From assembly GCA_034401135.1 (NCBI GenBank), contig JAWZSP010000009.1, positions 1-64,000 on the forward strand: a stretch of DNA of 64,000 nt. Direction: 5' to 3'. Positions 11,384-62,870 of this stretch are shown here, piece by piece. Source of the DNA: Volutella citrinella. Taxonomy: Eukaryota; Ascomycota; Sordariomycetes; Hypocreales; Nectriaceae. The translations under genes were made by a program, and so were the position numbers. The notes beneath the pieces are model-generated. The model was given only the letters and a program-made list of their open reading frames with translations. It had not been told where the DNA came from and ran no database searches. Each line of letters opens with the position of its first letter. Within the stretch, counting starts at the first letter, position 1.

Positions 11384-13870
11384 TCTAGCTATACGCTTAA
11401 AGTAGTAGTTTAGTATATTATATAGTAGCTGTACCTTTATACAGTCAGGCTCTTATACTAACTGCAGTACTAAGATGCTAAGGTATATATTCTCAACTTA
11501 GTTTAAAGGAATATACACCTAGGTATACTACTATAATCCTATCTATACTACTATAAGTAAGGTAGGGAAGCTATAAAGGCTATTAATATTAAAAGTTAAC
11601 TATATAAAGCCCTGCTAGCCCTGCTCTTACTGCCCCCTACTATAATATAAATATAAGCAGAAGTATAGTAGTAATTCTTTATTATCTATAATACTTTCTA
11701 TAGCCCTCCTATAAGTATTACTATACTAGGTTAGGTCTGACTTTTTACTTTTATTATAATATACTAGCCACAAGAGGTTATATACTAAGTTAAGAATAAT
11801 AAGTAAGCAAGCCTTGCCTATACCTTTTAGTAATAATAACTAACCTTCTAGTCTTTTTACTATATTATTAAGTAAGGAATACTAAGGGGGTTCCTTTTAT
11901 AACTCTATTACCTTATCTAGCTGTGATTAATATTTCTTTTTATATTCCTTTCTAGTATATTTTATATTACTAGTCTACTCCTAAAAAAGAAGCACTATAA
12001 GGTCTTTTAGTTCTAGGTCCTTTATTATAATAATATTATCTCTGCTAGCAGACTCTCTCTTTTTATATAAACTCGCCCTAGTACTATTACTTTTAGATAT
12101 ACCCTTATTATAAACAGCTTCTATCCTCTTTTTATTTATAATAATAAAAAGTATAAAGTAGATAAGGGTTATAATACCTAGATATTATAATATAAACTTA
12201 GTCTAGTATAACAGGGTACTAACCTCCTGTAACTTAGTATTAGCTATATTAAATAAATATAACTCCTACTGCGTCTAGTTAAATATCTCTAAAAGTAGTA
12301 GTCTTATATTTACTTTAGCTTTAGTCTAATCTATTAATATATATAAGAACTGTCTAGTATACTCTAAGACTAGCAGACTGCAAGCCTATTTATAGGTTTG
12401 CTATATAACTAGCACTTCTTATATATATATAAGTATATTATTAAGCCTTATAATTATATATAATCTTTATAAGGCTGGTTAATAAGCTATATTAGCAGAG
12501 ACTAGATTAAATAGAAATAAGTATTACTTTCCTAGCTAATAGATAATAATTATCTAATAGCAGGACCTATCTTTATTATAGATCTGTTTAATTAGGAAAG
12601 CTATTATAATTACTTACCTAATCTTATTTAACTCTTATTATATAGAGTTTACTAAGTAGCTTTACTTACTAAGCTATATAAGCTATAGGAATAGATAGAG
12701 GTCCTTATATTTAGCAACTTATAGTAAAAGCTAAAGCCTACCTAGGATATTATAAGATATAAGCTGGTCTTACTACTCAAGCTAGTGCTAAAGGTTCTAA
12801 GTATTAAGCCTAAGATACTTCTAACTATTATCCTAGCTCTCTAAGGACTAGCTGTTATCTAATACTAGATAAGTATGCTGGAATATTTCTAGCTTAGTAA
12901 GTAACTATATAAAGTACCTATCTTAATTATATATTCTATTATTACTAATAGAAACTAGCAAGCTCTATAAAGGCCTTAGCTATAAGTTTAGTATATAATT
13001 ACTTAATTACTAAGAGGATAATAATAATAGCCCAGTCTATTAACAGGTCTATTAAGGGGTTCGTATACCTATAATTATAACTAAGCGAATAGTTCCTTAA
13101 GCTAAGAATGCTAACTACAGACTCTAACTTAGTACTAGATTGCTTAATAGACCTCTTATACTATTAGAAGCTTATAATATACTATTTCTATCTATATATA
13201 TAAGGTCAGCTTAAAGCAAGCCTTCTTATAAAAGTATAACTCTTAATTAACCTAAATATAGTCTATTATATAGACTGATAAACAGCTAATTAACTATATT
13301 AGCTAGTAATTATAGCTCCTTGTCTTAAGTATTATTTTAGTTAGTATTTACCTAGCTTTTTAGTATAATAGTATCTACTATATTACTACCTTTAGATATA
13401 ATTGCAAGTTAGGTATAAGAATTCTTAAAAAGGTAATTGCAATCTTACTTATTATCTTATATTAATTAGATTGTCTTTATATTCTTAACTAGGTTCTAAA
13501 TAAGTTGACTATTATATTATAGTATGTCTTACTAGTTGTAAGGTAGTTCCGCTATAAGTCAAGGCATAGGTAGCTCTTCAGCTAGTATAAGTATTAAGGT
13601 ATTTAGATCTATATATAAGCTAATAACTAGATTAGTAGTAGATAGCAATATTAGTAAGTAAGGTAGATAATAATAGTAATAATTTATATAGAATATATCT
13701 TTATACAACTTAGAGTGTATATTATTATTTAATACAGCAGCTTGGCCTTACTACTACTAGTAATACTACTAGTTTTATTTCTAATATAGAAAGGCTTTAT
13801 ATACCTTATATTCCTTAGTAATAAGATTTAGTCTAGGGCGACTGCGCTTTGTTAGTACTAATTAAGGTAT
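11384..13870 (-). pseudogene. Heavily mutated copy C of the two-gene unit
   Basis: About 2.5 kb of very AT-rich DNA without usable open frames. From about 13.25 to 13.87 kb it aligns base for base with the 207-aa gene, with C to T and G to A changes almost throughout (CTCGAGTATTG became TTAAGTATTA). From about 12.8 to 13.25 kb it aligns with the 5' end of the 1358-aa gene (GTTCCTTGAGCC became GTTCCTTAAGCT). I could not align 11.38-12.8 kb by eye, but it has the same composition. The pattern fits repeat-induced point mutation or another cytosine-deamination process. Confidence 0.7.
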
Positions 13871-13924
13871 TATTATTATATACTCTAAAGCTAGGAAGGG
13901 AATTATCCTTTAGTAAAAAGGGAG

Positions 13925-14025
13925 CTCTATTAGATTAATTATCTAACTATACCTAACTAGGATTTTATTATCTTACTATACCTAATTAGGGTTATTATCT
14001 TACTATACCTAATTAGGAATTTCCT
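13925..14025. repeat. ~28-bp repeats upstream of copy C
   Basis: Two to three units of TTATCTTACTATACCTAATT separated by AGGGTTA or AGGA. They are the counterpart of the minisatellites upstream of copies A and B. Confidence 0.6.
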
Positions 14026-14037
14026 ATCTAAAAGTCT

Positions 14038-14209
14038 TTAAAATTCTATAACTAATTAGCAAAAATAGATATAAGAAAAAGGGAAGAGCTAAAAATTAAG
14101 AAATAAATCGTTTTAAATCGTTATATATTCGCTTTTTATTTTTTCAAAAAAAGTATACCCTCTGGTTCACGCTCGCGGGCCTAACCTTAACCTGGGTTTC
14201 AACACTTAA
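14038..14209. repeat. Terminal block of repeat unit, copy C
   Basis: The most diverged of the three blocks, ending GGGTTTCAACACTTAA at 14209. The next bases belong to the broken lipase gene, whose reading frame is closed by the TTAA of this junction. Confidence 0.75.
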
Positions 14210-15052
14210 ATATTAATAAAGACGATAGCCATTTCACTCTGTAGCTGTGCAATCACATCGGCCTGGATGCGGGTATTGACAAGGTCGACAAGGTCATTCA
14301 TAGCCTTCCGGTTCTGCAGGAGCATGGGCAGCACTCCTAGTAGGCCTCTTACCAATCTGTTTTTAAAGAAGAACGTCTAGTCACATACATTATTAACAAA
14401 GCCATCCGAGCTGAAAAACTTTGCATAGCCAGTGACATAGACAACACCGCCAGGTTTCAGAGTATTCTTAATAAGCCGCACCTTGCGGCAATATTTTTCA
14501 AAGATGGAGTCGTCGCTGATGGCGCGACTAGCTTTGCCAAGCTCTGCATTACACGCGCTTTAAGCAGTCGACTGTGTCTTGGTGTCTGTCCTTTTAGCAT
14601 AAACACACTTGGCCTGAAGCAAGAAACGTTAGGCTGACTCCCGGTTAAAGACCACTCGTTGACTCGCAAACACTTACCACAACGTTGCCAAAGTTGAAGT
14701 CGTTCCCGCTAATAGAGACCATTGCTAGATCAATCTGGTTTCCAAGCAACTGGGAAACCTGCCCGTCGATGTTATCCAGCACATCCCCCGAACAGGAGAG
14801 GAAGTGCAGAGTTAGGCGAGTCGGGAACATGCTCTGTAGATGTATGGAGTACGAACCCGTCATACGTGCGCAGATGTTGTCGCGATCATCGGACGGCGGG
14901 ACGAAACGGCCAGCGCCGATGCCTGCTGAGAAACTGTCTCCAAATACTGCCATAGTAAATTGCGTTGGGATGCGCTTGGTCAAAGCCGCTCCAGCGAGGG
15001 GCGAGGCCACCGCCTCACCCAACAGCAAGGCTGAAAGAAGAAGAGGAAGCAT
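14206..15052 (-). pseudogene. Secreted SGNH/GDSL lipase, broken by stops and 3' loss
   Basis: Exon 1 (15052-14678) encodes a signal peptide (MLPLLLSALLLGEAVAS), block I of SGNH hydrolases (FGDSFSAGIGAG, nucleophile Ser) and block III (VSISGNDFNFG). A 64-nt GT-AG intron (14677-14614) leads to exon 2, which keeps family sequence (AKCVYAKRTDTKTQSTA, later LKPGGVVYVTGYAKFF) but has in-frame TAA at 14560-14562 and TAG at 14377-14379. Both can be explained by single C-to-T or G-to-A changes (CAA to TAA, TGG to TAG). The frame then runs to 14209, where it meets the repeat unit, so the final part with the catalytic His (block V) is absent. Such enzymes normally hydrolyse esters outside the cell. Confidence 0.8.
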
Positions 15053-16266
15053 GTTGAACTGGATAATGAAATGACTTGACTGGGTTCCGAATAGTGGAAA
15101 GCGGTTGCTCTGTCGCCTCATTTATATCTTGCCACCAATGCTGGATGACTGCTCTCCTATTTATTTCGCTATCCCGCCCCCAATAAAGAAGATGGCGAAT
15201 CAGTGGCCATTGATGATAGTCCCGGGTGCATCTGTCCCAATTTCGATTATGGGATTGGTTGCCGCATCTCATCTCAATACACCCTGATGTTGCTTGACGT
15301 ATCACAAAGTGGTTCATTCACAGGCACGGGGTTATCAAACAGGGAGTTGTCGATTTCAGCTTTCGCGCACTAAGTCCACTTGCCGACTAAGGCGGCCACT
15401 CAGAGCTTTGAATCACAGAGGCGCGGTCGGCTTTGCGGCATTCCGAGCTGACTGCATCTCAGGGCCCTGTCACCCCCACTACAGTACATCCCGAGGGGGC
15501 CGATGAAGACAGCCCAGAGAAGCCTGCACGGGGTGCTATGTCTTGGGACACTATTGTCCAGTAAAAGGAGTCGGCTGGAGAATTTTCGGAGCGTGCACAC
15601 TGTATGATGGCTGAACGGAGATAGTCGAGCGCTGCATTGGTATGACATGGACGGGCCGAGCCAGGTCACCGCTGACGTGAGATACAGCCAGGGCTGAGCC
15701 AGCCCGAGAGGCGCCGGTTATTTCAGAGACTCAGAGGCCACCAATTACTACCTCGGGCCCAGTCAGGGGCATAATGGGGTCTGATCAGTCAGCCGCATCT
15801 CGCGAATCTCAGTGCCCCTTGACTGACTGCATCTGTCTTTGCCGCCAGTGACATTCGTCTGGATGGATCGGGGAGGCAGGAGCTGGGTGAGTCTCTTAGT
15901 CTCCCCACCCGTCCGTCAGCGGGTAAGCTGGCGGGGTGCAGTGAATTGAATCTAGTCTGGAGAGGAGAGGAGTCGGCAATATCCTCTCAGAGCAAGGACA
16001 GGGAAACAAGATGGATAGGGGTAAACAAAAGTCTTGGCGGAATATCAGGTGCACCCTCTGTCTCCAGTTTACCAGAAATCCGCAAGTTCCTAGGTTGGAG
16101 CTGTCTTGGGGCGATTGTCTCCTTTCATACGGCTGGCCGCATTCGTCCCCTTCTTGTCCTCTGCGAGACTCGCCCGACGCAATATCATCTCAACAATATC
16201 GATATCGATTTTCGCCTAGCTTGTATATTCCATGGCGGTGCCAATCGTAGCTAGCTTCGGAAGATA
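15053..16266. other. Intergenic, nothing recognised
   Basis: GC-normal sequence of 1.2 kb. Open frames on both strands are short, overlapping and without family features. The part next to 15052 would be the promoter of the former lipase gene. Confidence 0.5.
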
Positions 16267-19542: not shown

Positions 19543-21682
19543 TCGATCTGAGGACGGGGGTTGTTTTCACGTTGACGAGGCACGAGGCATGCAGACGAGG
19601 GAGGGTTTTGTCGTTATTGCCACTGTCAGTGGCAGAACATCGGCCTTATATTGCAAAAGGGAGTCATACGAGGCCAAGGTAAGCAGATTCAGCCGAGGCG
19701 GTTGAGGAGGGGTACTTTGGTCCCGAGAGAGCCAGGGGTGTGGCTATTGAGGAACAGAACGCGACTCCATTGGTTCGTCGTGTGAATCTCTGAATGAACC
19801 ACGGGGACAGGTGCGGGGTTGCTGCACCCTCGGCTCAACGGGGGCGGACCAATGAGGGCGGACCAATCATGGCGCGAGGCGGGTCGACAAGCATCAAAAC
19901 GCCAGCCACAAACCCTAGGTCGATCAGAAACACTGTTGGGAACCATCCCCAAGCAGTAAATTACTACACCCAACATCAATATTGATGTGTAAATTATAGA
20001 GGTGGACCAGTGTCAGTTTGGTGTGCCTTGATATCTTCTAGTTTTGTTTATTTACAATAGGCAAGATGGTGTAGCCGACTACAACATATTGACATGCCTT
20101 GAGTCTCTGCGGCCTCGTCTTGAAAAAGCATCGTAGAAAATACAGGATCCCTTTACTGATTAATGATTCGGAGTGGCAAGGCGCATTTGAGTGTTGAAAA
20201 GAAGCACGCAAAACCCGAGGTCCAGCGGGCAGACATGGATGAGAGTGGATGTAGTCAATGGAGAGTACGGTCCAAGGTCAATCTGCTGTACACATGGGCA
20301 CACTTGGTCTAAGCATCGGGTCGGAGACGAATGTCCATGAGACGACAATCACCAGGTGCACTCGCTAGAAAACTGGAAACGAGATCAAGGCAAGACAGGG
20401 TATAATTGCGCTGGCATTCTTGAGCCAGACCCACCGGCAGATCGTCAGATCATCGAGGAAGGCAGGCAAACCCAGGGAGAAGTATGAATCATAACGAATG
20501 TGGACTTCAATGTCCAGTGTTGATGCTGGGAGCGGCAATAATACGAACTTGAAGCGGCGCAAGCCCAAAGGCCTTGGCACGGCGCATAACGGATAGTTGG
20601 GGGGTCAATGGGCCGTCAAAGACTGGCCATGATTGCGATCAATACTTTGTCTATGACCCATGCCAACGGATGCATACGTAACGTACACGTCACCTTGAGT
20701 GCTTCCAGTGGAAACAAGGACGCTGATAACGAGAAACCCGACTGCAGGAATAAAGGAAAAGCCTGGGTCGGATCCGCAATCCTCGTATCTGTTCTTGACC
20801 CTGATTCCCATTGGGTTCGGGATCGGGATCAAGCTCTGGAGGCTGCCGTCATATCCAACCTCCAACGACGGGTGGCTGCATTAGAGCCCTACACAAGCCA
20901 TGAAGCCGGTGTGGTCCCGGAACGCGTTGCACGTGTTAATCCGATGGGCTCTGGAAGCATCGGGTCGTCGGTGGTACAGACGTGTGTTATTGCTCCTCCT
21001 CTCAGATGCTGGACCCAAGCTTTGCCGACGCGCCGGCCCCAGAAAGTCTTGATTGGACAGTGGATAGCTAAGTTGCACTCTCACAGGACCTGCGTTCTCC
21101 TCTCCCCATTTTCACGCATTGACTTTATGCGAGGACAAGATTCATATTGAGAAGCCCCTATCGTGCATAACCTTCCCACCCCTCTTCCATGTGCTGGATA
21201 CTATGTCACAAGGAAAAAGATTACGATTGTTTGACATACCTGGAACAACAACAGCCACCACACTCCCATGAGACTGCCCAGATATACGTCCAACATACCA
21301 GACGAGAGGATGGTGCAGGCTAGACTATTTAGTTCGTTTCAAGCGATCCAATGAAGTCATGGCTGGTCTTATCTATCGAACCGAACCGCTCGTGGCAACC
21401 AGCGTATCTGCAGCCTTCGTGTCTAGCTCTAGCTAGGTCTAATGTTTCTTTGCAGCTTTGGAGCTTATGTAGGTTACCGGTGGCAGGTCAAGCTTGACAT
21501 GGAGAAGTCTCGAGCGTCATTGTGCATCAGCAGCTCATGATAAAAGGCCAACATAGCATCCCGGATCCGTGAGGCCAGCGAGCAAAGACGAACAAACCGC
21601 TCTCAGAGGCACAACAGCGCCCTGTCTATTCACGTCTCCCCCACACCACTGACTCCGAGTCGGTGACTACCAGCGGCCCAAC
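19543..21682. other. Intergenic, 2.1 kb, no supported gene
   Basis: A 180-codon frame on the + strand (20608-21150) has no family features and is probably chance. The last few hundred bases before 21683 should hold the promoter and leader of the cysteine-repeat gene. Confidence 0.5.
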
Positions 21683-24600
21683 ATGAAGCTGGGCGGCTTT
21701 CTCCTCGCATCGCTCTTAGCCCTGACTTCGGCCTCTGCGCTGCCCCCAGCTCCAGGAACCGAGCTGACTGGAGATGCACGCCGAGGACGCAACGGGTTAA
21801 CCAGCCGGGGAGTGACTTGCCTGGCAGGCCAGTATCCCGGCGCAGACGACCAATGCCATCCCTGCGACCCCGGCCAATACAGCAAGGCCGGCGACCAGTC
21901 CTGCAAGGACTGCCCCAAGGGCATGGAAGCCACTCCCAAGCACGACAATTGTCAGGCATGCAATCCAGGATTTTACCGCCTCAGCGGTAAGACCCAGTGT
22001 AAGCAGTGCGATTCTGGCACAATCAGCGCCAGCAAGGGAGCAGATTCTTGCCAGGCCTGCACCGGTGGAAAGATTCCCAATCCTGCGCGGACTGCTTGCA
22101 TCTCTGTCGTCACCTGCGGCCCCGGCACCCAGCCCAAGAGTGATGGAACCGGCTGCACTCCATGTCCATCCGGACAAGTCAGTGACGGTAAGGCGGCCTG
22201 TTCTGCTTGTCAAGGTGGAATGGTTCCCAACCCGGACCGCAGCGCTTGCATCAGTCCTGTCACCTGCGGACCTGCTACAGAACCCAAGTCTGATGGAACT
22301 GGCTGTAACCCTTGCACAATGGGAAAGGTCAGTGACGGCAAGCAGGCATGCTACGCCTGTACGGGTGGAAAGATTGCCAACCCAGACCGCAGCGGCTGCA
22401 TTACGCCTTTGACTTGCGGACCTGGTACAGAACCGAAGTCTGATGGAACTGGCTGTAACCCATGCACATCCGGCAAGGTCAGCGATGGCAAGCAGGCATG
22501 TTACGCCTGTACAGGTGGAAAGGTCGCCAACCCAGACCGCAGCAGCTGCATTACGCCTGTGGCTTGTGGACCTGGCACAGAGCCCAAGAGTGATGGAAGC
22601 GGCTGCAACCCCTGTGCATCTGGAAAGGTCAGCGATGGCAAGCAGGCGTGCTACGGCTGCACTGGTGGAAAGGTTCCTAACCCCAACCGAAGTGCTTGTA
22701 TCAGCCCTGTCAGTTGCCAGCCAGGATCTGAGCCTAAGAGTGATGGCACTGGCTGCAACCCGTGTGGTTCGGGCAAAGTCAGTGATGGCAAGACGGCCTG
22801 TGCCGCCTGCACTGGTGGAAAGGTCCCCAACCCAGACCGAAGTGCCTGTATCATGCCGACAACTTGTCAACCTGGTTCCGAGCCTAAGACCGGAGGCGGC
22901 TGCAACCCTTGCGGATCAGGAAAGGTCAGTGATGGCAAGCAGGCATGTTACGGCTGCACTGGTGGGAAGGTCCCCAACCCGGACCGAAGTGCCTGCATCA
23001 CACCGACAACTTGTCAGCCAGGAACCCAGCCAAAGTCTGGTGGTGGTTGCGAGCCGTGTCCTTCCGGTAAGGTCAGTGACGGCAAGACGGCATGCGCTGC
23101 TTGTACAGGAGGAAAGGTGCCGAACAATGATCAGAGTGCCTGTATTACCCCCACAGGCTGCCCAGCCGGCTCTCAACCTAAGTCTGGAGGCGGGTGTGAA
23201 AAGTGCCCTTCCGGCAAGGTCAGTAGCGGCGGCAAGATGGCATGCGCAGCTTGTACGGGAGGAAAGGTGCCCAACCAGGATCAGAGTGCCTGTGTGACCC
23301 CTACGACTTGCCCGGCCGGCCAACAACCCAAGACCGGAGGAGGCTGCGAGAAGTGCCCAACTGGAAAGGTCAGTGATGGCAAGCATCCTTGTGCTGCCTG
23401 TACAGGAGGAAAGGTTCCCAATTCTGATAACAGCGCCTGCGTGACTCCCTCGACTTGCCGGCCTGGTTCAGAGCCCAAGGCTGGCGGAGGTTGTGCCAAG
23501 TGCCCGGCTGATAAAGTCAGCGACGGAAAGCATGCTTGCGCTACTTGTACAGGAGGAAAGGTTCCCAACTCTGACAACAGCGCCTGCGTTACGCCAACTA
23601 CATGCCAGCCTGGTTCCGAGCCGAAGGCCAGCGGCGGCTGCGCCAAGTGCCCTTCAGGCAAGGTTAGTGACGGCAAGCATGCTTGTACGGCTTGTACTGG
23701 TGGAAAGGTGCCCAACGGCGACAACAGCGCCTGCGTTTCGCCGACTTGTCAGCCTGGATCAGAGCCCAAGGCCGGCGGCGGTTGTGCCAAGTGCCCCTCA
23801 GGCAAGGTCAGCGATGGAAAGACTCCTTGCAAGGCTTGTCCCAAGGACCAGGTTCCCAACTCTGGTCAGAGTGCTTGCGTGACGCCAACAACCTGCCAGC
23901 CTGGATCAGAGCCCAAGATTGGCGGTGGATGTGCCAAGTGTCCAGCTGACAAGGTCAGCGATGGAAAGACTCCCTGCAAGGCTTGTCCCAAGGACCAGGT
24001 TCCCAACTCGGGCCAGAGTGCTTGCGTCACTCCTACTTGCCGACCTGGATATGAACTTGGCCCGCATGGCTGCATAAAGTGCAAGTCCAACGAAGTCAGC
24101 GACGGAAAGACGCCCTGCAAGCCTTGTCCCAAGAACCAGGTTCCCAACAAGGATAACAGCGCTTGCGTCCCTCACACGGGCCCCAGTTCATGCAAGCCGG
24201 GTTTTGAACCGACCCTACTTGGCTGCAAGAAGTGCGGAGCCAACGAGGTCAGCGACGGAAAGACTCCCTGCACGCCTTGCGGCAAGGGACAGGAACCCAA
24301 CAAGGACCACAGTGCCTGCGTTTCTCCCACTCCTTGCAGACCAGGCTACGAGCCCACTCCACACGGCTGCTACAAGTGCCCTTTAGGCAAGGTCAGCGAC
24401 GGCAAGACTCCCTGCAAGCCCTGCACCAACGGACAGGTGCCCAACGCAGACCAGAGTGCCTGTATTGCTCCCACCACCTGCAAGCCGGGCTATGAGCCTG
24501 GTCCACACGGTTGTATCAAGTGCCTTGCCGGCAAGGTTAGTGACGGTAAGAAGGCTTGCGCTCCTTGTACTCATGGACTAGTGCCCAACAAGGACCAGAG

Positions 24601-25252
24601 TGCCTGCGTTAGCCCTCCAAGCTGCAAGCCTGGCTATGAGCCTAGCCCATACGGCTGTATCAAGTGCGAGAAGGACAAGGTCAGTGACGGCAAGAAGGCC
24701 TGCAAGCCTTGCCCCCATGGGCAGGTCCCCAACAAGGATCACAGCGCGTGCGTCCCTCACACGCACCCCCACGGGTGCAAGCCCGGCTACGAACCCACCC
24801 ATGACGGTTGCAAGAAGTGTGGGCCCAACCAAGTGAGCGACGGCAAGATGCGTTGCACTTACTGCAAGCATGGAGAGGTCCCCAACAAGGACCACAGTGC
24901 CTGCACTCGTCCCGTCACTTGTGCGCCTGGATATGAGCCTAGCCACGACGGTTGCAAGAAGTGCGGGCCCGACGAGGTCAGCGACGGCACCAAGGCATGC
25001 AAGGCTTGTCAGCCAAACTACAAGCCCAACACATACCACGATGCCTGTGTCCCTATCTGGAAGTGTGGCTCCCACGCCTCTCCCCGTCCGGTGGGTGGAG
25101 GATGTATTTGCCACAACCCTCACCTCATCTATGATCCCGCAAGTCACAAGTGTGGTTGCGGCTCCCATGCTTACTACAACCCTTTCACCGGGGGCTGTGT
25201 CTGCAAGAGCCTCAGCCAGCGCTGGAAGAAGGATCTTAAGACGTGTGCCTAG
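21683..25252 (+). CDS. Secreted giant protein with 20 six-cysteine repeats (1189 aa)
   Basis: Intronless. Residues 1-20 are a signal peptide (MKLGGFLLASLLALTSASAL). Residues ~45-144 are Cys-rich and resemble the ephrin-receptor-like GCC2/GCC3 fold (CDPGQYSKAGDQSCKDCPKG). From C145 to about residue 1127 there are 20 tandem units of 47-51 residues, each with six Cys and the core CxPGxEPK...GCxxC...VSDGKxxCxxC...VPNxDxSAC. Repeats fall into three successive types by position: 1-5 (KSDGTGC), 6-13 (GGGC) and 14-20 (PHGC or HDGC). The C-terminus holds two more Cys pairs around CGSHASPRP and CGCGSHAYYNP. No membrane anchor or GPI signal is evident. It is likely a disulfide-rod protein of the wall or extracellular space; the function is unknown. 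Confidence 0.85.
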   Translation: MKLGGFLLASLLALTSASALPPAPGTELTGDARRGRNGLTSRGVTCLAGQYPGADDQCHPCDPGQYSKAGDQSCKDCPKGMEATPKHDNCQACNPGFYRLSGKTQCKQCDSGTISASKGADSCQACTGGKIPNPARTACISVVTCGPGTQPKSDGTGCTPCPSGQVSDGKAACSACQGGMVPNPDRSACISPVTCGPATEPKSDGTGCNPCTMGKVSDGKQACYACTGGKIANPDRSGCITPLTCGPGTEPKSDGTGCNPCTSGKVSDGKQACYACTGGKVANPDRSSCITPVACGPGTEPKSDGSGCNPCASGKVSDGKQACYGCTGGKVPNPNRSACISPVSCQPGSEPKSDGTGCNPCGSGKVSDGKTACAACTGGKVPNPDRSACIMPTTCQPGSEPKTGGGCNPCGSGKVSDGKQACYGCTGGKVPNPDRSACITPTTCQPGTQPKSGGGCEPCPSGKVSDGKTACAACTGGKVPNNDQSACITPTGCPAGSQPKSGGGCEKCPSGKVSSGGKMACAACTGGKVPNQDQSACVTPTTCPAGQQPKTGGGCEKCPTGKVSDGKHPCAACTGGKVPNSDNSACVTPSTCRPGSEPKAGGGCAKCPADKVSDGKHACATCTGGKVPNSDNSACVTPTTCQPGSEPKASGGCAKCPSGKVSDGKHACTACTGGKVPNGDNSACVSPTCQPGSEPKAGGGCAKCPSGKVSDGKTPCKACPKDQVPNSGQSACVTPTTCQPGSEPKIGGGCAKCPADKVSDGKTPCKACPKDQVPNSGQSACVTPTCRPGYELGPHGCIKCKSNEVSDGKTPCKPCPKNQVPNKDNSACVPHTGPSSCKPGFEPTLLGCKKCGANEVSDGKTPCTPCGKGQEPNKDHSACVSPTPCRPGYEPTPHGCYKCPLGKVSDGKTPCKPCTNGQVPNADQSACIAPTTCKPGYEPGPHGCIKCLAGKVSDGKKACAPCTHGLVPNKDQSACVSPPSCKPGYEPSPYGCIKCEKDKVSDGKKACKPCPHGQVPNKDHSACVPHTHPHGCKPGYEPTHDGCKKCGPNQVSDGKMRCTYCKHGEVPNKDHSACTRPVTCAPGYEPSHDGCKKCGPDEVSDGTKACKACQPNYKPNTYHDACVPIWKCGSHASPRPVGGGCICHNPHLIYDPASHKCGCGSHAYYNPFTGGCVCKSLSQRWKKDLKTCA
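22115..25063 (+). repeat. In-frame ~147-bp tandem repeat array (20 units)
   Basis: The DNA encoding the 20 cysteine units. Adjacent units are the most alike, as expected for stepwise duplication by unequal crossing-over. All unit lengths are multiples of three, so copy number can change without breaking the frame. Confidence 0.85.
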
Positions 25253-55128: not shown

Positions 55129-55330
55129 AGGGGCATTTGTATTTTTTCTTAGGCGTCGGTCGGTGGTAAATAGCCTTCTTAATTCATTGTTTTTTACCAA
55201 TACGTCTCATCTCTCCTGTCTTGGCTAGCGGTTACGCCTTGGTGCCAATCTATGACGTGAACAGTCTCAGCCCCCTCCCAACTGAGTGTTTCAGATACAC
55301 CAGATTGCCTTCATCTTGGCGCCAACTTTC

Positions 55331-56775
55331 TCACCAAGCCAGATTATCCATACCGCCTTCAACCGCCTTGCACACTGTTAAATAATTAGCGCGGCCCCGA
55401 ACCTGAGACCGACACCGTTGGATGAGACTTACGGCTTTCCGCTTCGGTCCAGGATGCAGTCCTGCATTGCTGGATGGCCGCAGGATGTACTTCCTTGTGC
55501 TCAAGACGTTCTTTCTCAAGGTGCGCCTCAATCGCTCTTGCGATGTCGTTGAGTGCCGCTTGGGACAGATTAGCTTGCGACTCGGCCCTTTCCGTCGTCA
55601 TTCAGGTACACGTACGCTTGATATTGCTCAACTTTTGACCGTGGCGAGACAGTTCCTTGTAAACCTCTTCTTGGCGCTGAATAGCCGTTTTCATTTCGAG
55701 GTCCAGTGATTGTCTTATGGCGTCACCTGAGTCGGCAGAGTTTGTCTTCCTTGACGAGTACACATCGCATCGCACCGTCGTCTCCTGAGCTGCATCTGGA
55801 GAATAGATGATGTGGTACCAGAAAGGGCTCCCACTTTTGCAATACACTTTGGCTAATGGCGAGAACTGGAGCTGGCCCGTAGGAGTGACTCCCTTGAATA
55901 AAAACTTTGAACGAGGCTGCCCAATCGGAGGACAGAATTGGCCGTCATCGTTGACTTTTGCCGTCAGCTCGGTTTGCAGCTAGCGGTGGACGTGAATACT
56001 AACCGGGAATCTTCCAGTTTAATTTTGCCTTGTATTCTAAGCTGAACAGATAGTGCGACTTGGCAGTAATCCTCGAAGGGTGTCCACTTGTGAGTGCGGC
56101 CGGGGGTTGGTCTAGGGTGGCTGCTCCGTCTCCACTGAGATTGACATGCACAAATCCCTGGTCGTCAACCTTGCAAAGAAGTGGGAAAAGACTATTTTCT
56201 TCTTTGTCAAAGCCGGCAATGTGGTCAAACTTTGGCGCCTTTACGAGCTTGCCCGTGGTATCATAGCTCCATCCATGATACTTACACCCCAATACGGTTG
56301 CGAAGCCGGATGCCTTGGACGCCACTGGAAAAGCTCGATGACGACAGACGTTGTGAAACCCGCGGAGAACATTGTCTTTTCCAAGAATAAGGAAGAACTT
56401 GAATCCGGCAATGTTGTATGAGACATAGTTCCCTGCTGCCGTGAAGCGACTACGATGAGTCACGCACAGCCAAGTCTGAGCCTGGTAGTTAGATTCCATG
56501 AGTAAGGACAATCAACCAATACGGGTACTCACATTACTAAAAATAGCTCGTCGCTCGAGTTGATAGATGGTTTTGTCGGTCCACCATCCAGCTGGAATCT
56601 GCGCAGATGTGTCGGGTCTTTCTGATCTAGTATCGGACAACGTTCTGGGCCTTTGGCTGAGCAGCCAGATGTTCAGGATGACCGACGCAGAGAGCAGCAG
56701 CGGAAGGCCGTAGATGACGGAGGCATGAACAATTGAAACCTCGGCTGATTCTATCATGGTCACTGTTTTTTTCAA
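55331..56775 (-). CDS. Rieske [2Fe-2S] oxygenase-like protein lacking the mononuclear iron motif (409 aa)
   Basis: Five exons: 56775-56533, 56481-56004, 55954-55616, 55558-55433, 55374-55331 (introns 51, 49, 57 and 58 nt). Residues ~14-40 form a membrane anchor. The Rieske ligands are all present: C127-x-H129 and C147-x2-H150 (VCRHRAFP, then GCKYHGWSYD). After the Rieske domain the protein reaches LNWKIP (~240), where relatives continue into an N/D-x-Y-x-E-C-x-H-x4-H iron site. Here that segment is absent and the sequence goes to KFLFKGVTPTGQLQFSPLAK, FWYHIIYSPDAAQETTVRCD and a helical tail. It can accept electrons but probably cannot bind the catalytic iron. It is divergent from the plus-strand gene with the complementary lesion. 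The third splice is the least certain. An alternative ATG lies at 56757. Confidence 0.8.
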
Positions 56776-57263
56776 GGAGCGATAGGAGGAAGATTGCTGA
56801 GCAGAGATGTGGTGTCGATGCCTGCAAGACTTGCGAGATGCCCGGAACTATCATCTGGACGTCCTTGTTAGGCGTTTGTCCGATCAAACCTTTAACTCAC
56901 CATGTCCATCGTTTACGTATACCTAAACGGGTAGTGCAATCCCCCGATCGTTACTATGTGATAGTATTACTACGTGGGGGTCTGAGCGTAGGGCCTCGTT
57001 ATCTGCGTCTGCAATACGAACGGTCCACGTAGACTTCACATGCAAAATCAGAAAAACGGGACTGATGGAGGCCCGAATGATGCGCGTGATGCGACGATCA
57101 AGCGACACTATCGTCACTGTCACCGAGCGCTGTCAGGTGGGTCACCGAACTATGGCCTCTAGTTCCGCCACGCCCTCCTCCCGCCGAGCTTGTGATTGGT
57201 GTGTTTCAAAGGGACTTTTTTTCCAAAAACGGAAATTCAATCCACCAACAGACCAAGCGCACG
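56776..57263. promoter_or_regulatory. Bidirectional promoter of the Rieske pair
   Basis: 488 bp separate the two divergent start codons. The region contains CGTTTA-8 bp-TAAACG (56910-56929) and a 40-bp imperfect palindrome (56941-56980). A shared promoter would make the two products in step. Confidence 0.6.
56941..56980. promoter_or_regulatory. 40-bp imperfect inverted repeat, possible operator
   Basis: The left arm starts CCCCCGATCGTTACTAT and the right arm ends ATAGTATTACTACGTGGGGG. The outer five bases and the inner ACTAT/ATAGT pair perfectly, with a few mismatches between. No gene overlaps it. Confidence 0.45.
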
Positions 57264-58497
57264 ATGGCATCTACACAGACGGTATTATCCGAGCCCAAGT
57301 TGGGCTATGATATTTACAGCACATCGCCTTGTATGTCATATCCAGGCTCCAAGCTTCCTAGCGCATCAACCCCAACAGCCATGTCGACTTGTCCCGCAAC
57401 TCTTCCCGCCTCGTGGTATACGAGCAGTGCACTGTACAAGCTTGAGAGGAGGGCAGTCTTTTTGAAGGTTTGATCATCCGGAATTTACTATTCCTCCCTA
57501 ACAAGTTTGCAGGCATGGATAGTGCTCGGAGGGGCGGCTCGATGGCCCGAGGTCGGAACCGACTATTGCAGCGAGATTGCCCAAGTTGAATTCGTTGTGC
57601 GACGCCTGTCAAAGAGCTGGAAGAGTATCAAGGTGTTCTCCAAGAGTGATGTAAGTAAAAAAGGTTGCAAAGCATGGCTTGATGACTCTAATGTTGCCTA
57701 GGGCTCCGAGATGCGAAGCCACTTGATGCCCAATGGGCTACTCTTTTTGGCCTTGTCTGACGACGCCGTCCCCTTCCACGAGTACTTTCCAGGCCTCGAA
57801 GAACTCATATCTCATGTAGATTGCACTCAGATTCAACCGCGCAAATGCCTCACCTACCCGGGGAAATACAACTGGAAAACCATGGTGGATGGATACCAGG
57901 AGTGTCTCCATTGCCCATACGCACATCCCGCATTCTCCAAAGTGTATTCGCCAGTCACGTACCAGGTCCTCATTCGACAGAACTACTGCCAGCATGTTAC
58001 CGAGTCTCGGAGTCCAGATGACGGCATCTTCATCTACCTTTTCCCCAACTCGGCTGTGTCAATGTATGCAGGGGGCATGTCTTGCTTCCGTGCTTGTCCT
58101 CAGGAAGACGCCAACGAGGTGGCGATGCAGTTTGACTACTACCACAAGGAAGCAATCGGAACAGAGATGTTTGACAACTACTTCAAGTTTGCGCGCAATG
58201 TTGCTATCGAAGACCATGACCTTTGCGAATTGGCGCAAGAGAATCTCCAAGCTGGCATCTATTCGGAGGGCCTGCTTAACCCTGAGAAGGAGAATGGCGT
58301 TTCGTGTAGGCTGAATTAGTGCCAATGGAGCGGTACAAATTGCTAACCGTTTGCCTTTAGACTATCAGGGCCGAGTCAGAGAATTGTGTCTCGCTCAGTA
58401 TCAGCAAGACAGGGAGAGTCAACAGGGCCACGATCAGCCCGAATTGAACCCCAACAAGGGCATCCAGGGTGCTAATGAGACCACTACTGTGTATTGA
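57264..58497 (+). CDS. Rieske-oxygenase-like catalytic subunit lacking the [2Fe-2S] ligands (360 aa)
   Basis: Four exons: 57264-57467, 57513-57650, 57702-58305, 58361-58497 (introns 45, 51 and 55 nt). It begins like choline-monooxygenase-type oxygenases (ASWYTSSALYKLERRAVFLK). The stretch that should hold C-x-H and C-x2-H reads instead EIAQVEFVVRRLSKSWKSIK and SKSDGSEMRSHLMPNGLLF, with no ligands, and the introns are too short to hide them. The catalytic domain is complete: YNWKTMVDGYQECLHCPYAH gives Fe ligands H184 and H189 with bridging D177, and IEDHDLCE (~284-291) gives the third, acidic ligand. The C-terminus ends YYQGRVRELCLAQYQ as in relatives. It would need electrons from another protein. 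The divergent neighbour is the obvious donor. Confidence 0.8.
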
Positions 58498-58721
58498 TTT
58501 ACAGTATGACTCAACAGTGGTACTAGATGTTCCTTTGCTGCGATTTTACTAGATTGAGCTACAGCAGGCAACAAGTTTTGCGAATTCAATATGTGTTTGA
58601 GCCTTTGTATCAGCACCACGTCGTTTTGATCACATATTCTCATAGACTGCTGCCTACTCAGTTCCTGCTAAGTAGAAATGCGCAAAGGCATACCCGACGT
58701 GAATGCGTTGTCTGATCATGC

Positions 58722-60225
58722 TTATGCCTCGGGCTTCTGCCCGTAAACCACGACGCTATATCATATTAGCTTAGAGTGAAACCAAGTGGCACCAATAGCA
58801 CTACTCACATCGGCCAATATGCGTGTACTTGTGGATCACGCATTTCCTTTCGAACCTGTTTGACGAACTCGACAACCTCCTCTTGGGTCCAGCCTAGGCC
58901 ACGCGTGAAAAGGGCCATGCTCAATGCTTCGAGGCCGCCACCAATATTGGCGAGAGTCCAGAGTCCAACCTCTTTGTGCTTCTCCTCCTTTGGCCAGGTG
59001 CCCGTTGGCCACTTGAAGATCTTTTCGTGCACATTGGTAAATCCAGCCGCAATCAGTCTATTCTTGTGGTTCTTCCCCTCGTCCATTGGGCGGCCGAGAT
59101 TGATGCTTGACTCGATCATCTTGTCGTTCCACACCATGAGCGGCCCTTCTTTGCGCATAGTCCCATCATCGGTTTCACAGGGGACCATGATGTCAATGAT
59201 CTCCAACCAACCACCGGGGTTAAGATTGCTAATGTGGCTGGGTCAGTTCTGGCCATCAAACTATGATGCCCGATTCAGTCTTCACGTACTTGGAAGCCTT
59301 GTCAACAAAGCTAGCCCAGTCCGAGAAGCTCGCCATCATCATGCGACTGAAGATGTAGTCAAATGGCTCTGACCAAGTCCAATCCTTCTCCAAGTCGTCA
59401 ATCTCGAATCTGCAGTTCGGTGGAATGCTTGTTCAATATTGGTTAGTCAAAATATCGCCTTTCTGAACTTGAATTGCCATGCCATACAACGAGGGTTGAA
59501 TTGGGCTCAGATCGACTCCTATAACCTGCCGAGCGTAAGTTTTGCAGACTGTTCAATCCACACTTGAGCCAATACCTCGGAATCTGGATGAGAATCAGCT
59601 GCAAAAACAATTAGCGCTATTCCATGCACTAGATGTTGTCAAACCCACCAAATTCGATGGCCCAGATGCCGGTTCCGGTACCAACATCGAGAACTCTGTT
59701 TGCAGTCTCTGCGCCTGGAGAAAAATATCTGCGGCCGTCAAAAGTCACAGTGAAGTGGTGATCTTGTATATCTAACAGGGCATTAGCCACCCAATGTAAT
59801 AATCACATCCCTGAAAGTTTCTCTTGCCTAGACGCTCGTTCTCCATCTCGTCATTTGGCAAGATGTATTCTGGACGCAAATTGTCAGCGATCATAGAGTT
59901 GATAGAATGGCGAGTACGCACTGCCTCTGCTCATTGCATGGTACCGGCGTCCATTTTCTCGCTGGTAGTTGTATATGCTCGACCGAAGCGACTCGGATGT
60001 CAACTGGTCATCAAGCTGATTCGCAAACGCGATGTCTCAGTGTTAATTCCACGAGATGACAACACGGGAAAAATTACTGACACTCGAGATGGCCGACTCT
60101 GAAAGGGAAGCGGCGTCGTCGGCGGCGATCTAGTTGGACCTTCGTTAGACAATCATCTTGTCTCGGGAATGTCAACCTACCAATGGAGCCTGCCTGTCTT
60201 GGGTGGGAGCCTGCTCGCTGGCCAT
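58722..60225 (-). CDS. LaeA-like SAM-dependent methyltransferase (334 aa, ten exons)
   Basis: Exons: 60225-60181, 60129-60082, 60015-59922, 59869-59828, 59771-59649, 59598-59576, 59525-59488, 59427-59290, 59228-58809, 58755-58722; all joins keep phase. The spliced protein has the family opening SLRSSIYNYQRENGRRYHAM, KYILPNDEMENERLDIQDHH, then SAM motif I (NRVLDVGTGTGIWAIEFAD), VIGVDLSPIQPSFIPPNCRF, a motif like FDYIFSRMMMASFSDW and LNPGGWLEIIDI, and ends IVVVYGQKPEA. The fourth intron (59827-59772) has a GC donor (CTAG/GCAAGA). Relatives include the global regulator LaeA but also many small-molecule methyltransferases in gene clusters; its position suggests the latter. Confidence 0.88.
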
Positions 60226-61160: not shown

Positions 61161-61946
61161 TTAGATGACGTCAAACTCAATCGTACCGAAGTCCTCGAAC
61201 GTGCAAGTCCAGCGTCCAGCCTGGTCCATGTCGACTGCTTTCAGGCAACTGCCAGGCAATACAATGGAACCAGCTTCCAGCGTCACATCGTACGCGGCGA
61301 GGCGGTTGACGAGCCACGCGACAGCAGCCAGAGGGTTTCCGAGCACGTTTCGTGTGTTCCCCGAGATGACTTCCTTCCCGTTGAATAGCAGGTCGCCTCG
61401 CATGTCGCTCATGCTCCTCAGGTCAGTCAGCTTGCGGGGAGTACCACCAAGGATGATGGCCGCGGTAGATCCGTTGTCAGCTAGTGTGTCCGGGAGGTTG
61501 ATGGCCCAGTTCTTGACACGAGAGTCAATAATCTCAATAGCAGGAACAGCATAGTCGATGGCGTTGATAACATCGGCGATAGTAACATTGGGGCCGCGAA
61601 GGGAGCTGCGCAGCATGAAGGCCACCTCGAGCTCGACATAAGGCTTGATGTAATCGGCACGGTTGAGCGTCGTGCCCTCGTACTTGAAGGTGCTAGCGAG
61701 GAGGAAGCCGTAGTCAGGCTGGTCTAGTCCAAAGGCATCCTGCATAACCTTGGCAATGTTGCCCAGCTTGTAGCCGACCAGGCGGTCTCCATTCTTAACA
61801 GCGTTGGCAACGGTCAGCTGCTGGCATTTGAAGGCATCGTCGACACTGAGCTCAGGCCATGTCTCGTGAGGAGGGTCAATGGGGTTTCTATCAATGCGGG
61901 CCTTGCGAAGGGCCTCGCAAATCTGCTGTAGCTGATCTTCCTGCAT
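61161..61946 (-). CDS. 2-keto-4-pentenoate hydratase-like protein, FAH superfamily (261 aa)
   Basis: Intronless. The sequence matches the MhpD-type hydratase/decarboxylase fold throughout: VGYKLGNIAKVMQDAFGLDQPDYG (in parts), GFLLASTFKYEG, then EVAFMLRSSL with the metal-binding Glu, IDYAVPAIEIIDSR, and the C-terminal VAWLVNRLAAY and GSIVLPGSCLKAVDM. In bacteria these add water to 2-hydroxypenta-2,4-dienoate after ring cleavage of aromatics; fungal members are less studied. Length is typical for the family. The lack of introns, against ten exons next door, would fit a bacterial-type origin but does not prove it. It sits beside the oxygenase and methyltransferase genes. Confidence 0.85.
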   Translation of the reverse strand: MQEDQLQQICEALRKARIDRNPIDPPHETWPELSVDDAFKCQQLTVANAVKNGDRLVGYKLGNIAKVMQDAFGLDQPDYGFLLASTFKYEGTTLNRADYIKPYVELEVAFMLRSSLRGPNVTIADVINAIDYAVPAIEIIDSRVKNWAINLPDTLADNGSTAAIILGGTPRKLTDLRSMSDMRGDLLFNGKEVISGNTRNVLGNPLAAVAWLVNRLAAYDVTLEAGSIVLPGSCLKAVDMDQAGRWTCTFEDFGTIEFDVI

Positions 61947-62870
61947 CTTTATGTGATTTGTGTATGTAAGACGAGAAACTTGCGGAGAGGATCTGAGTAG
62001 TGCAAAAAGATATAAGGGAATTGAATGATTTCACTATAGCACAATAGACCAGGCCCAGCCCTGTAATATAGGCAATGAACCAGCATCAACATGTTCACTC
62101 CTTGTTTCGATACCCTTCCGCAACAGGTAGATCGCATCTATCCGATCCCGTGCACTAGACGCAGATGGGTGGGGGTGTGCATCGGGATCCTCGGATGTGC
62201 TCCCGAGACTCACTCTCGGCATCCATTACCTGATTGGGACACACAAAATCGGATGCTTCGTGGGGTACTGGAGATTTTTGTTCTGATCTAGACACTAGAG
62301 AAAATCCATGGAACTGCATTATCTAGAAGACCCGATTGTTTCGGCTATCTGACCGAGGCCTCTTGGCATTCGTTCCCCCGGAGGTGCCGGTTCGAGATGT
62401 CGAGGCACAGACTTATGATGGATGATTTGACATGGCTGGCCCCTTAGAAATGCCTGGATTAATTTGGAAAGGGTCTTGTTTTCCCATAGTCAACGGCATG
62501 ATCCTCCAGCCCCATGGCCCACTGGCCTAGAGTCACTTAGACGATGTCCCATGTGGTGTCTGTGCCCAACATCTGTATACTGAACTAACGGATTGCTTGT
62601 CCTTCTACCCTGGCCGACTATCTCTGGCTCTAGGTTACATTGGTATCATTTTACTCATTAGAATACAACATGTTTCCTGCTTTGTAGCCCACGAGGTAAT
62701 CGTTGGATGGATGCATCTTGCATAACGGGAAGAGGAAACTTGATTGTCTGAGCTGTTAGTGCTAGAAATATGGGACATGAAAGTAGAGATGGTAGCAATT
62801 TTCGGTTAATTTAACTAATTGACAGACTATGGCGCTGCGCTGAAGACATTCTTTTAAGCCGGTTACGTAG
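61947..62870. other. Intergenic, nothing recognised
   Basis: The promoter side of the hydratase gene and the 3' side of the last gene. No supported frame. Confidence 0.5.

Follow-up and report, generated by a model that had tools for sequence, protein, structure and literature searches.

Rieske oxygenases hold two metal centres on a single chain, and these centres only work across a subunit boundary. In the carnitine monooxygenase component CntA, the distance from cluster to iron is 12.2 Å across subunits versus 44 Å within one chain, and a bridging glutamate carries the electron between neighbouring subunits. Here we describe a pair of divergent genes in the fungus Volutella citrinella in which the two centres are found on two different chains. 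The pair lies in the first 64 kb of contig JAWZSP010000009.1 (assembly GCA_034401135.1, 45.1 Mb), a stretch of 64,000 nucleotides referred to below as the window. An initial annotation of this stretch placed the pair at positions 55331–58497, coordinates that hold, and described it as a Rieske oxygenase split into an electron-carrying and a catalytic subunit. We consider it likely (probability about 0.85) that the two products are subunits of a single heteromeric Rieske non-heme iron oxygenase of group V (CntA-like, quaternary-ammonium type).

The only split precedent that we found is the bacterial NdmCDE system, which is built differently and which is called the first reported instance of a split-off Rieske domain in the available portion of its description (PMC4408171). 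Among fungal enzymes with both sites on one chain, ChnagG of Cochliobolus, expressed in bacteria, is reported (PMC12130555) to function alone as a salicylate 5-hydroxylase. Searches of an open-access library, a scope outside which most subscription papers and preprints fall, brought up no fungal Rieske oxygenase described as split. The terms “fung” and “eukaryot” do not occur in the term-searched text of a 2025 review of Rieske oxygenases (PMC12445004).

Two genes with complementary metal sites

Each product of the pair corresponds to one half of the Rieske oxygenase architecture (Table 1). The profile comparison proposed in the initial annotation returned a single model per chain: the minus-strand product matches only PF00355 (1.2e-13, with a query whose last 15 residues were provisional and wrong) and the plus-strand product only PF00848 (6.7e-21). 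The cluster site of the minus-strand product, hereafter the Rieske chain, is complete and its mononuclear iron site is absent. Its CxH...CxxH motif had been recognised correctly, with residue numbers 8 higher than in our model. The plus-strand product, hereafter the catalytic chain, shows the reverse: all of the iron site is present and none of the Rieske ligands, in agreement with the earlier reading of D177, H184, H189 and a later acidic ligand. This ligand is D285, further on in exon 3, so that H184, H189 and D285 are the iron ligands; alignment to CntA adds D177 and the bridging E181, and the CxxC pair is formed by C182 and C185. Among the listed relatives are two Dactylonectria proteins, P0001 for the Rieske chain (50% identity over 91%, with the same provisional query) and P0121 for the catalytic chain (67% identity over 88%).

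Taken together, the two chains display the group V features, with the CxH...CxxH ligands on the Rieske chain and the 2-His-1-carboxylate site, bridging glutamate and CxxC pair on the catalytic chain; both centres on one alpha chain, as is typical of the group, are found in neither product. As to the substrate, the CxxC pair and the tyrosine do no more than point to group V chemistry. Both genes also retain the N-terminal LERRAxF motif and, right after this motif plus two residues, a phase-0 intron, as the initial annotation had stated. It had further assigned an N-terminal membrane anchor to the minus-strand product, and a hydrophobic stretch is indeed present there (best 19-aa mean hydropathy 1.96), so the Rieske chain is predicted to be membrane-anchored via its N-terminus. 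Structure prediction gives this chain a whole oxygenase fold, including an oxygenase-like C-terminal part, and Pfam identified no reductase domain in it.

The splice models of both genes are predictions based on consensus sites and homology. The least certain junction is the end of intron 2 in the Rieske gene, which reads AAG; a rival acceptor at 55853 does not restore the iron site. A six-frame scan of positions 55300–58600 found one full Rieske motif, in the minus-strand gene, and one full catalytic motif, in the plus-strand gene. Because each motif occurs once in the six frames, other splicing of the locus could not complete either gene. We therefore reject a hidden exon or alternative splicing that restores a missing motif, splicing of this kind being one of the refuting conditions named in the initial annotation.

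Table 1. Window coordinates of the gene pair and its features; exon boundaries follow the predicted splice models.
Feature	Position	Strand	Details
Rieske (electron-carrying) subunit gene	55331..56757	-	5 exons, 401 aa, C-terminus NLAW
Exons of the Rieske gene	56757-56533, 56475-56004, 55954-55616, 55558-55433, 55374-55331	-	splice model; last exon includes stop
Exon 1 of the Rieske gene	56533..56757	-	225 bases; hydrophobic N-terminus and LERRAIFSN, then phase-0 intron
Rieske [2Fe-2S] ligands	56275..56346	-	C119-x-H121 ... C139-x2-H142; sole full Rieske motif in 55300-58600
C-terminal LAW codons	55334..55342	-	stop codon at 55331-55333; like the cytosolic iron–sulfur assembly (CIA) targeting signal, not a strict match
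Intergenic gap between the divergent start codons	56758..57263		506 bp
Catalytic (mononuclear iron) subunit gene	57264..58497	+	4 exons, 360 aa
Exons of the catalytic gene	57264-57467, 57513-57650, 57702-58305, 58361-58497	+	splice model; exon 1 of 204 bases, last exon includes stop
Intron of 51 bp	57651..57701	+	splice model; roughly at the point where the Rieske domain lacks its cluster-binding part
Iron-site block	57888..57926	+	D177-G-Y179-Q-E181-C182-L-H184-C185-P-Y-A-H189; sole such motif in 55300-58600

Conservation of the split among relatives

Three protein searches (the best 120 of 894, 286 and 1104 matches) provided 314 proteins in all, which we sorted into 173 Rieske-only proteins, 119 catalytic-only proteins, 19 merged gene models and three two-centre proteins. 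The listed matches are the best-scoring ones for each query, and rarer forms lower down fall outside this census. In the Rieske-only set, the cluster ligands C86, H88 and C106 (CntA numbering) are kept in 173 of 173 proteins and H109 in 172; equivalents of the iron-site residues E205, H208, H213 and D323 are all missing from 141 of these proteins, and the remaining 32 retain one and never more. The catalytic-only set is the mirror image: all four cluster ligands are absent in 119 of 119 proteins, and D201, E205, C206, H208, C209, H213 and D323 are kept in every one. The Y203 position is occupied by tyrosine in 100 of them and by phenylalanine in 19.

The C-terminal tail follows the cluster. 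Cytosolic iron–sulfur clients often end in [LIM]-[DES]-[WF], and choline monooxygenase is named among the bearers of this signal in the accessible part of PMC10623007. A looser [LIM]x[WF] terminus is found in 130 of the 173 Rieske-only proteins versus none of the 119 catalytic-only ones, and LAW, the terminus of the window's Rieske chain, also ends two of this genome's canonical oxygenases. The tail thus appears to have stayed with the cluster, a pattern in the sequences and not proof of its use.

Phylogeny and age of the split

We placed 74 of the sequences in a tree, using a quick search with Shimodaira–Hasegawa-like approximate likelihood ratio test support only. The Rieske-only rows (31) and the catalytic-only rows (33) fall into one clade per type, both with support of 100. 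The intact two-centre proteins P0096, P0117 and P0120 join the catalytic-only clade with a support of 93, a value that is not strong. Six other loci of the Volutella genome match both PF00355 and PF00848 (C1:6244k, C4:850k, C3:5056k, C1:103k, C1:330k and C6:802k; L001, L002, L004, L006, L007 and L012), and these canonical two-centre oxygenases, entered in the tree as exon frames, form a separate group at 99. In three of the six, the frame breaks just after NYNE, which by eye suggests an intron inside the active-site motif.

This sequence-based topology fits one duplication followed by reciprocal loss. Together with the residue census and the shared predicted fold, it makes reciprocal loss from a common two-centre ancestor, the origin put forward in the initial annotation, well supported. 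The split is probably old within filamentous ascomycetes, because Pezizomycetes rows occur besides four other classes among the listed matches (Tuber in the catalytic list and Sphaerosporella, as a 249-aa row, in the Rieske list).

Gene order and co-occurrence

The initial annotation had suggested a search for the same pair in other ascomycetes. Scoring a catalytic and a Rieske row as sharing a contig when their contigs are of exactly equal size in bp, we found same-contig pairs for at least 26 of the 99 named catalytic rows, with reciprocal loss in all 26. The pairs span Sordariomycetes, Leotiomycetes, Dothideomycetes and Eurotiomycetes (one genus per class checked). Nine pairs have consecutive locus tags, and Aspergillus niger carries the two genes side by side (AnigIFM50267_003061/003062). 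In one pair (14113 bp), the two rows carry the names of two different Aspergillus species. At the species level, 42 of the 95 species with a catalytic gene occur among the listed Rieske matches. As to whether each gene is routinely found alone, which had been named as a point that could overturn the proposal, these paired rows and shared species, drawn from the best 120 matches per search, are a partial answer.

Among the listed proteins, 17 are merged gene models of 587–743 aa in which a catalytic part is followed by a Rieske part; they occur in Lophiotrema, Pseudopithomyces and several species of Aspergillus and Penicillium. This order implies head-to-tail genes in those genomes, so the divergent arrangement, and with it the shared promoter on which the initial annotation relied, is not general. 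We considered whether the merged models are natural fusions that would prove a working unit and rejected this, since several have an internal methionine (a possible start of the Rieske gene) and their junctions differ. Most likely, tandem genes were joined in annotation, and we used these models for gene order only. Two further merged models, P0247 and P0261 of Aspergillus niger, join a Rieske-only gene to a PF04117 gene, which suggests a neighbour there.

Surroundings of the pair

TAACCC telomere repeats occupy window positions 1 to about 140, so the window starts at a chromosome end, with about 55 kb between the telomere and the pair. The G+C fraction is 0.38 at positions 12001–16000 compared with 0.50–0.57 in the other 4-kb blocks, possibly marking a mutated repeat region, and an RNase H frame is found at 2218–2901. 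A 1199-aa open frame on the plus strand (21653–25249) matches the TNFR_ELAPOR1_6th model (PF23091) in 11 stretches; such cysteine-rich repeats are unusual near a fungal telomere. To the right of the pair, the minus strand carries a gene at 58805–59242 that by eye is likely a methyltransferase (the tested exon has no Pfam match) and an FAA-hydrolase-like gene at 61164–62030. An Rfam search of the window returned no match.

Discussion

The analysis shows the reciprocal loss, its conservation, the adjacency of the genes and their predicted folds; from these we infer that the two chains act as one working enzyme, and with it the physical complex, the electron path, the anchoring and the activity. 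An ancestral two-centre oxygenase gene would have been duplicated early in filamentous ascomycetes. One copy would have kept the [2Fe-2S] cluster, the tail resembling the iron–sulfur assembly signal and a membrane anchor, and would have lost the iron site; the other would have kept the iron site and the electron-accepting glutamate, with loss of the tail and of the part that binds the cluster. A reductase would reduce the anchored Rieske chain; in the catalytic chain, E181 would relay the electron to the iron, which would activate oxygen. Because cross-subunit electron transfer already operates in homomeric relatives, two chains can share this work. Two kinds of chain cannot alternate around a ring of three subunits, and our guess is therefore a 1:1 heterodimer or multiples of it. 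We lean towards a fuller version of this proposal, in which the pair is an ancient, obligate two-chain oxygenase widespread in filamentous ascomycetes, with a membrane-anchored, CIA-matured Rieske subunit and a cluster-free catalytic subunit, probably without a three-fold ring and possibly with a quaternary-ammonium substrate.

Other explanations account for parts of the data. The two genes could be neighbours whose products belong to different systems, the catalytic chain being fed by another Rieske protein, such as a canonical oxygenase, and the Rieske-only chain serving as a membrane-bound carrier for other acceptors. The six canonical loci would offer such donors, and adjacency and co-inheritance do not prove binding. 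We nevertheless regard separate partners as unlikely, given that same-contig pairs recur in four classes and that the genes stand head to tail elsewhere and divergently here. The divergence of the two domains is also matched (r 0.54, with none of 2000 shuffles as high), a correlation that shared species history alone could explain, and the Rieske chain is predicted to keep a whole oxygenase fold, as docking to a partner subunit would need. Still less probable is a catalytic chain that needs no Rieske cluster, being reduced directly by a flavin enzyme or using a peroxide shunt, next to a separate or regulatory Rieske chain. According to PMC10952381, CntA itself can use hydrogen peroxide in place of NADH and reductase to oxidise its substrate; the bridging glutamate, invariant in all 119 listed catalytic-only proteins, would then be conserved without a partner. 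That the genes are two decaying pseudogenes or an artefact of gene modelling is very improbable. Each gene has lost one ancestral site and the splice models are predicted, but the frames are open and the splice sites usable throughout, and the same two architectures occur in 292 listed relatives with 0.69–0.71 identity in the retained domains, in line with the earlier argument against two dead genes.

Several points weigh against a single two-subunit oxygenase. Of the 95 species with a catalytic gene, 53 are absent among the listed Rieske matches and stay undecided, and several two-gene species (e.g., Ilyonectria robusta) show different longest contigs, leaving adjacency unproven there. The strict [LIM]-[DES]-[WF] signal is present in 82 of the 173 listed Rieske-only proteins and LAW in the window fails it, while 18 of the 173 are shorter than 340 aa and may be fragments. 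A model of a merged catalytic–Rieske protein reached a predicted TM-score (pTM) of 0.62, with each half confident and the interface too weak to read. No reductase gene was recognised among the 25 open reading frames (ORFs) of the window that were scanned (24 of the 41 listed and one other). The proposal as a whole draws on sequence and predicted folds. Elsewhere in the genome, an unlinked MOSC protein with NAD-binding and Fer2 domains (L026 1474–2940, C7:2831k) is a possible reductase candidate, and a P450–reductase fusion contains FAD-, NAD- and Fer2-domains in its reductase part (L027 1–1743, C2:959k).

If the two chains are one enzyme, the donor side is encoded by one gene and the acceptor side, with its bridging glutamate, by the other, and the pair would be a clean test, set up by nature, of the electron path across subunits. 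It would also illustrate the passage from a homomer to an obligate heteromer by reciprocal loss. Many fungal database entries named “choline monooxygenase” or “Rieske domain-containing protein” would then each stand for one of the two halves of an enzyme, and results from the expression or deletion of a single gene could be misleading.

Comparison with known systems

The initial annotation had drawn its comparison with the naphthalene dioxygenase type; the closest solved relatives are instead group V oxygenases such as CntA. The CntA/CntB carnitine monooxygenase (PDB 6y8j and related) is the solved relative that both chains match best in sequence. By predicted fold, CntA ranks first or tied first, with 3n0q and stachydrine demethylase equal within 1 Z for the Rieske half. 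The catalytic chain shares with CntA the bridging glutamate, the CxxC pair and the 2-His-1-Asp site, and the Rieske chain shares the cluster ligands. In CntA, however, both centres are on one chain of a homotrimer (as given in the accessible part of PMC7948474), whereas here they are divided between two chains, the Rieske chain with a predicted membrane anchor.

The pair belongs to the same family as the canonical two-centre oxygenases of fungi (choline-monooxygenase-like proteins and ChnagG), with which it shares the LERRAIF-like N-terminal motif and whose form is the probable ancestral architecture. Both sites are on one chain in those proteins, and the six of this genome group apart from the pair. 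The 7-methylxanthine N7-demethylase NdmCDE of Pseudomonas putida CBB5 resembles the pair in that its catalytic chain, NdmC, has no Rieske cluster of its own and relies on one carried by another protein. NdmCDE also requires the glutathione S-transferase (GST)-like NdmE; no GST domain was found in the 25 window ORFs scanned, and the search did not extend to shorter ORFs or to other parts of the genome. In NdmCDE the Rieske domain forms a fusion with the reductase NdmD, whereas in the fungal pair the cluster stayed on a degenerate oxygenase paralogue that has no Pfam reductase domain and has lost its own iron.
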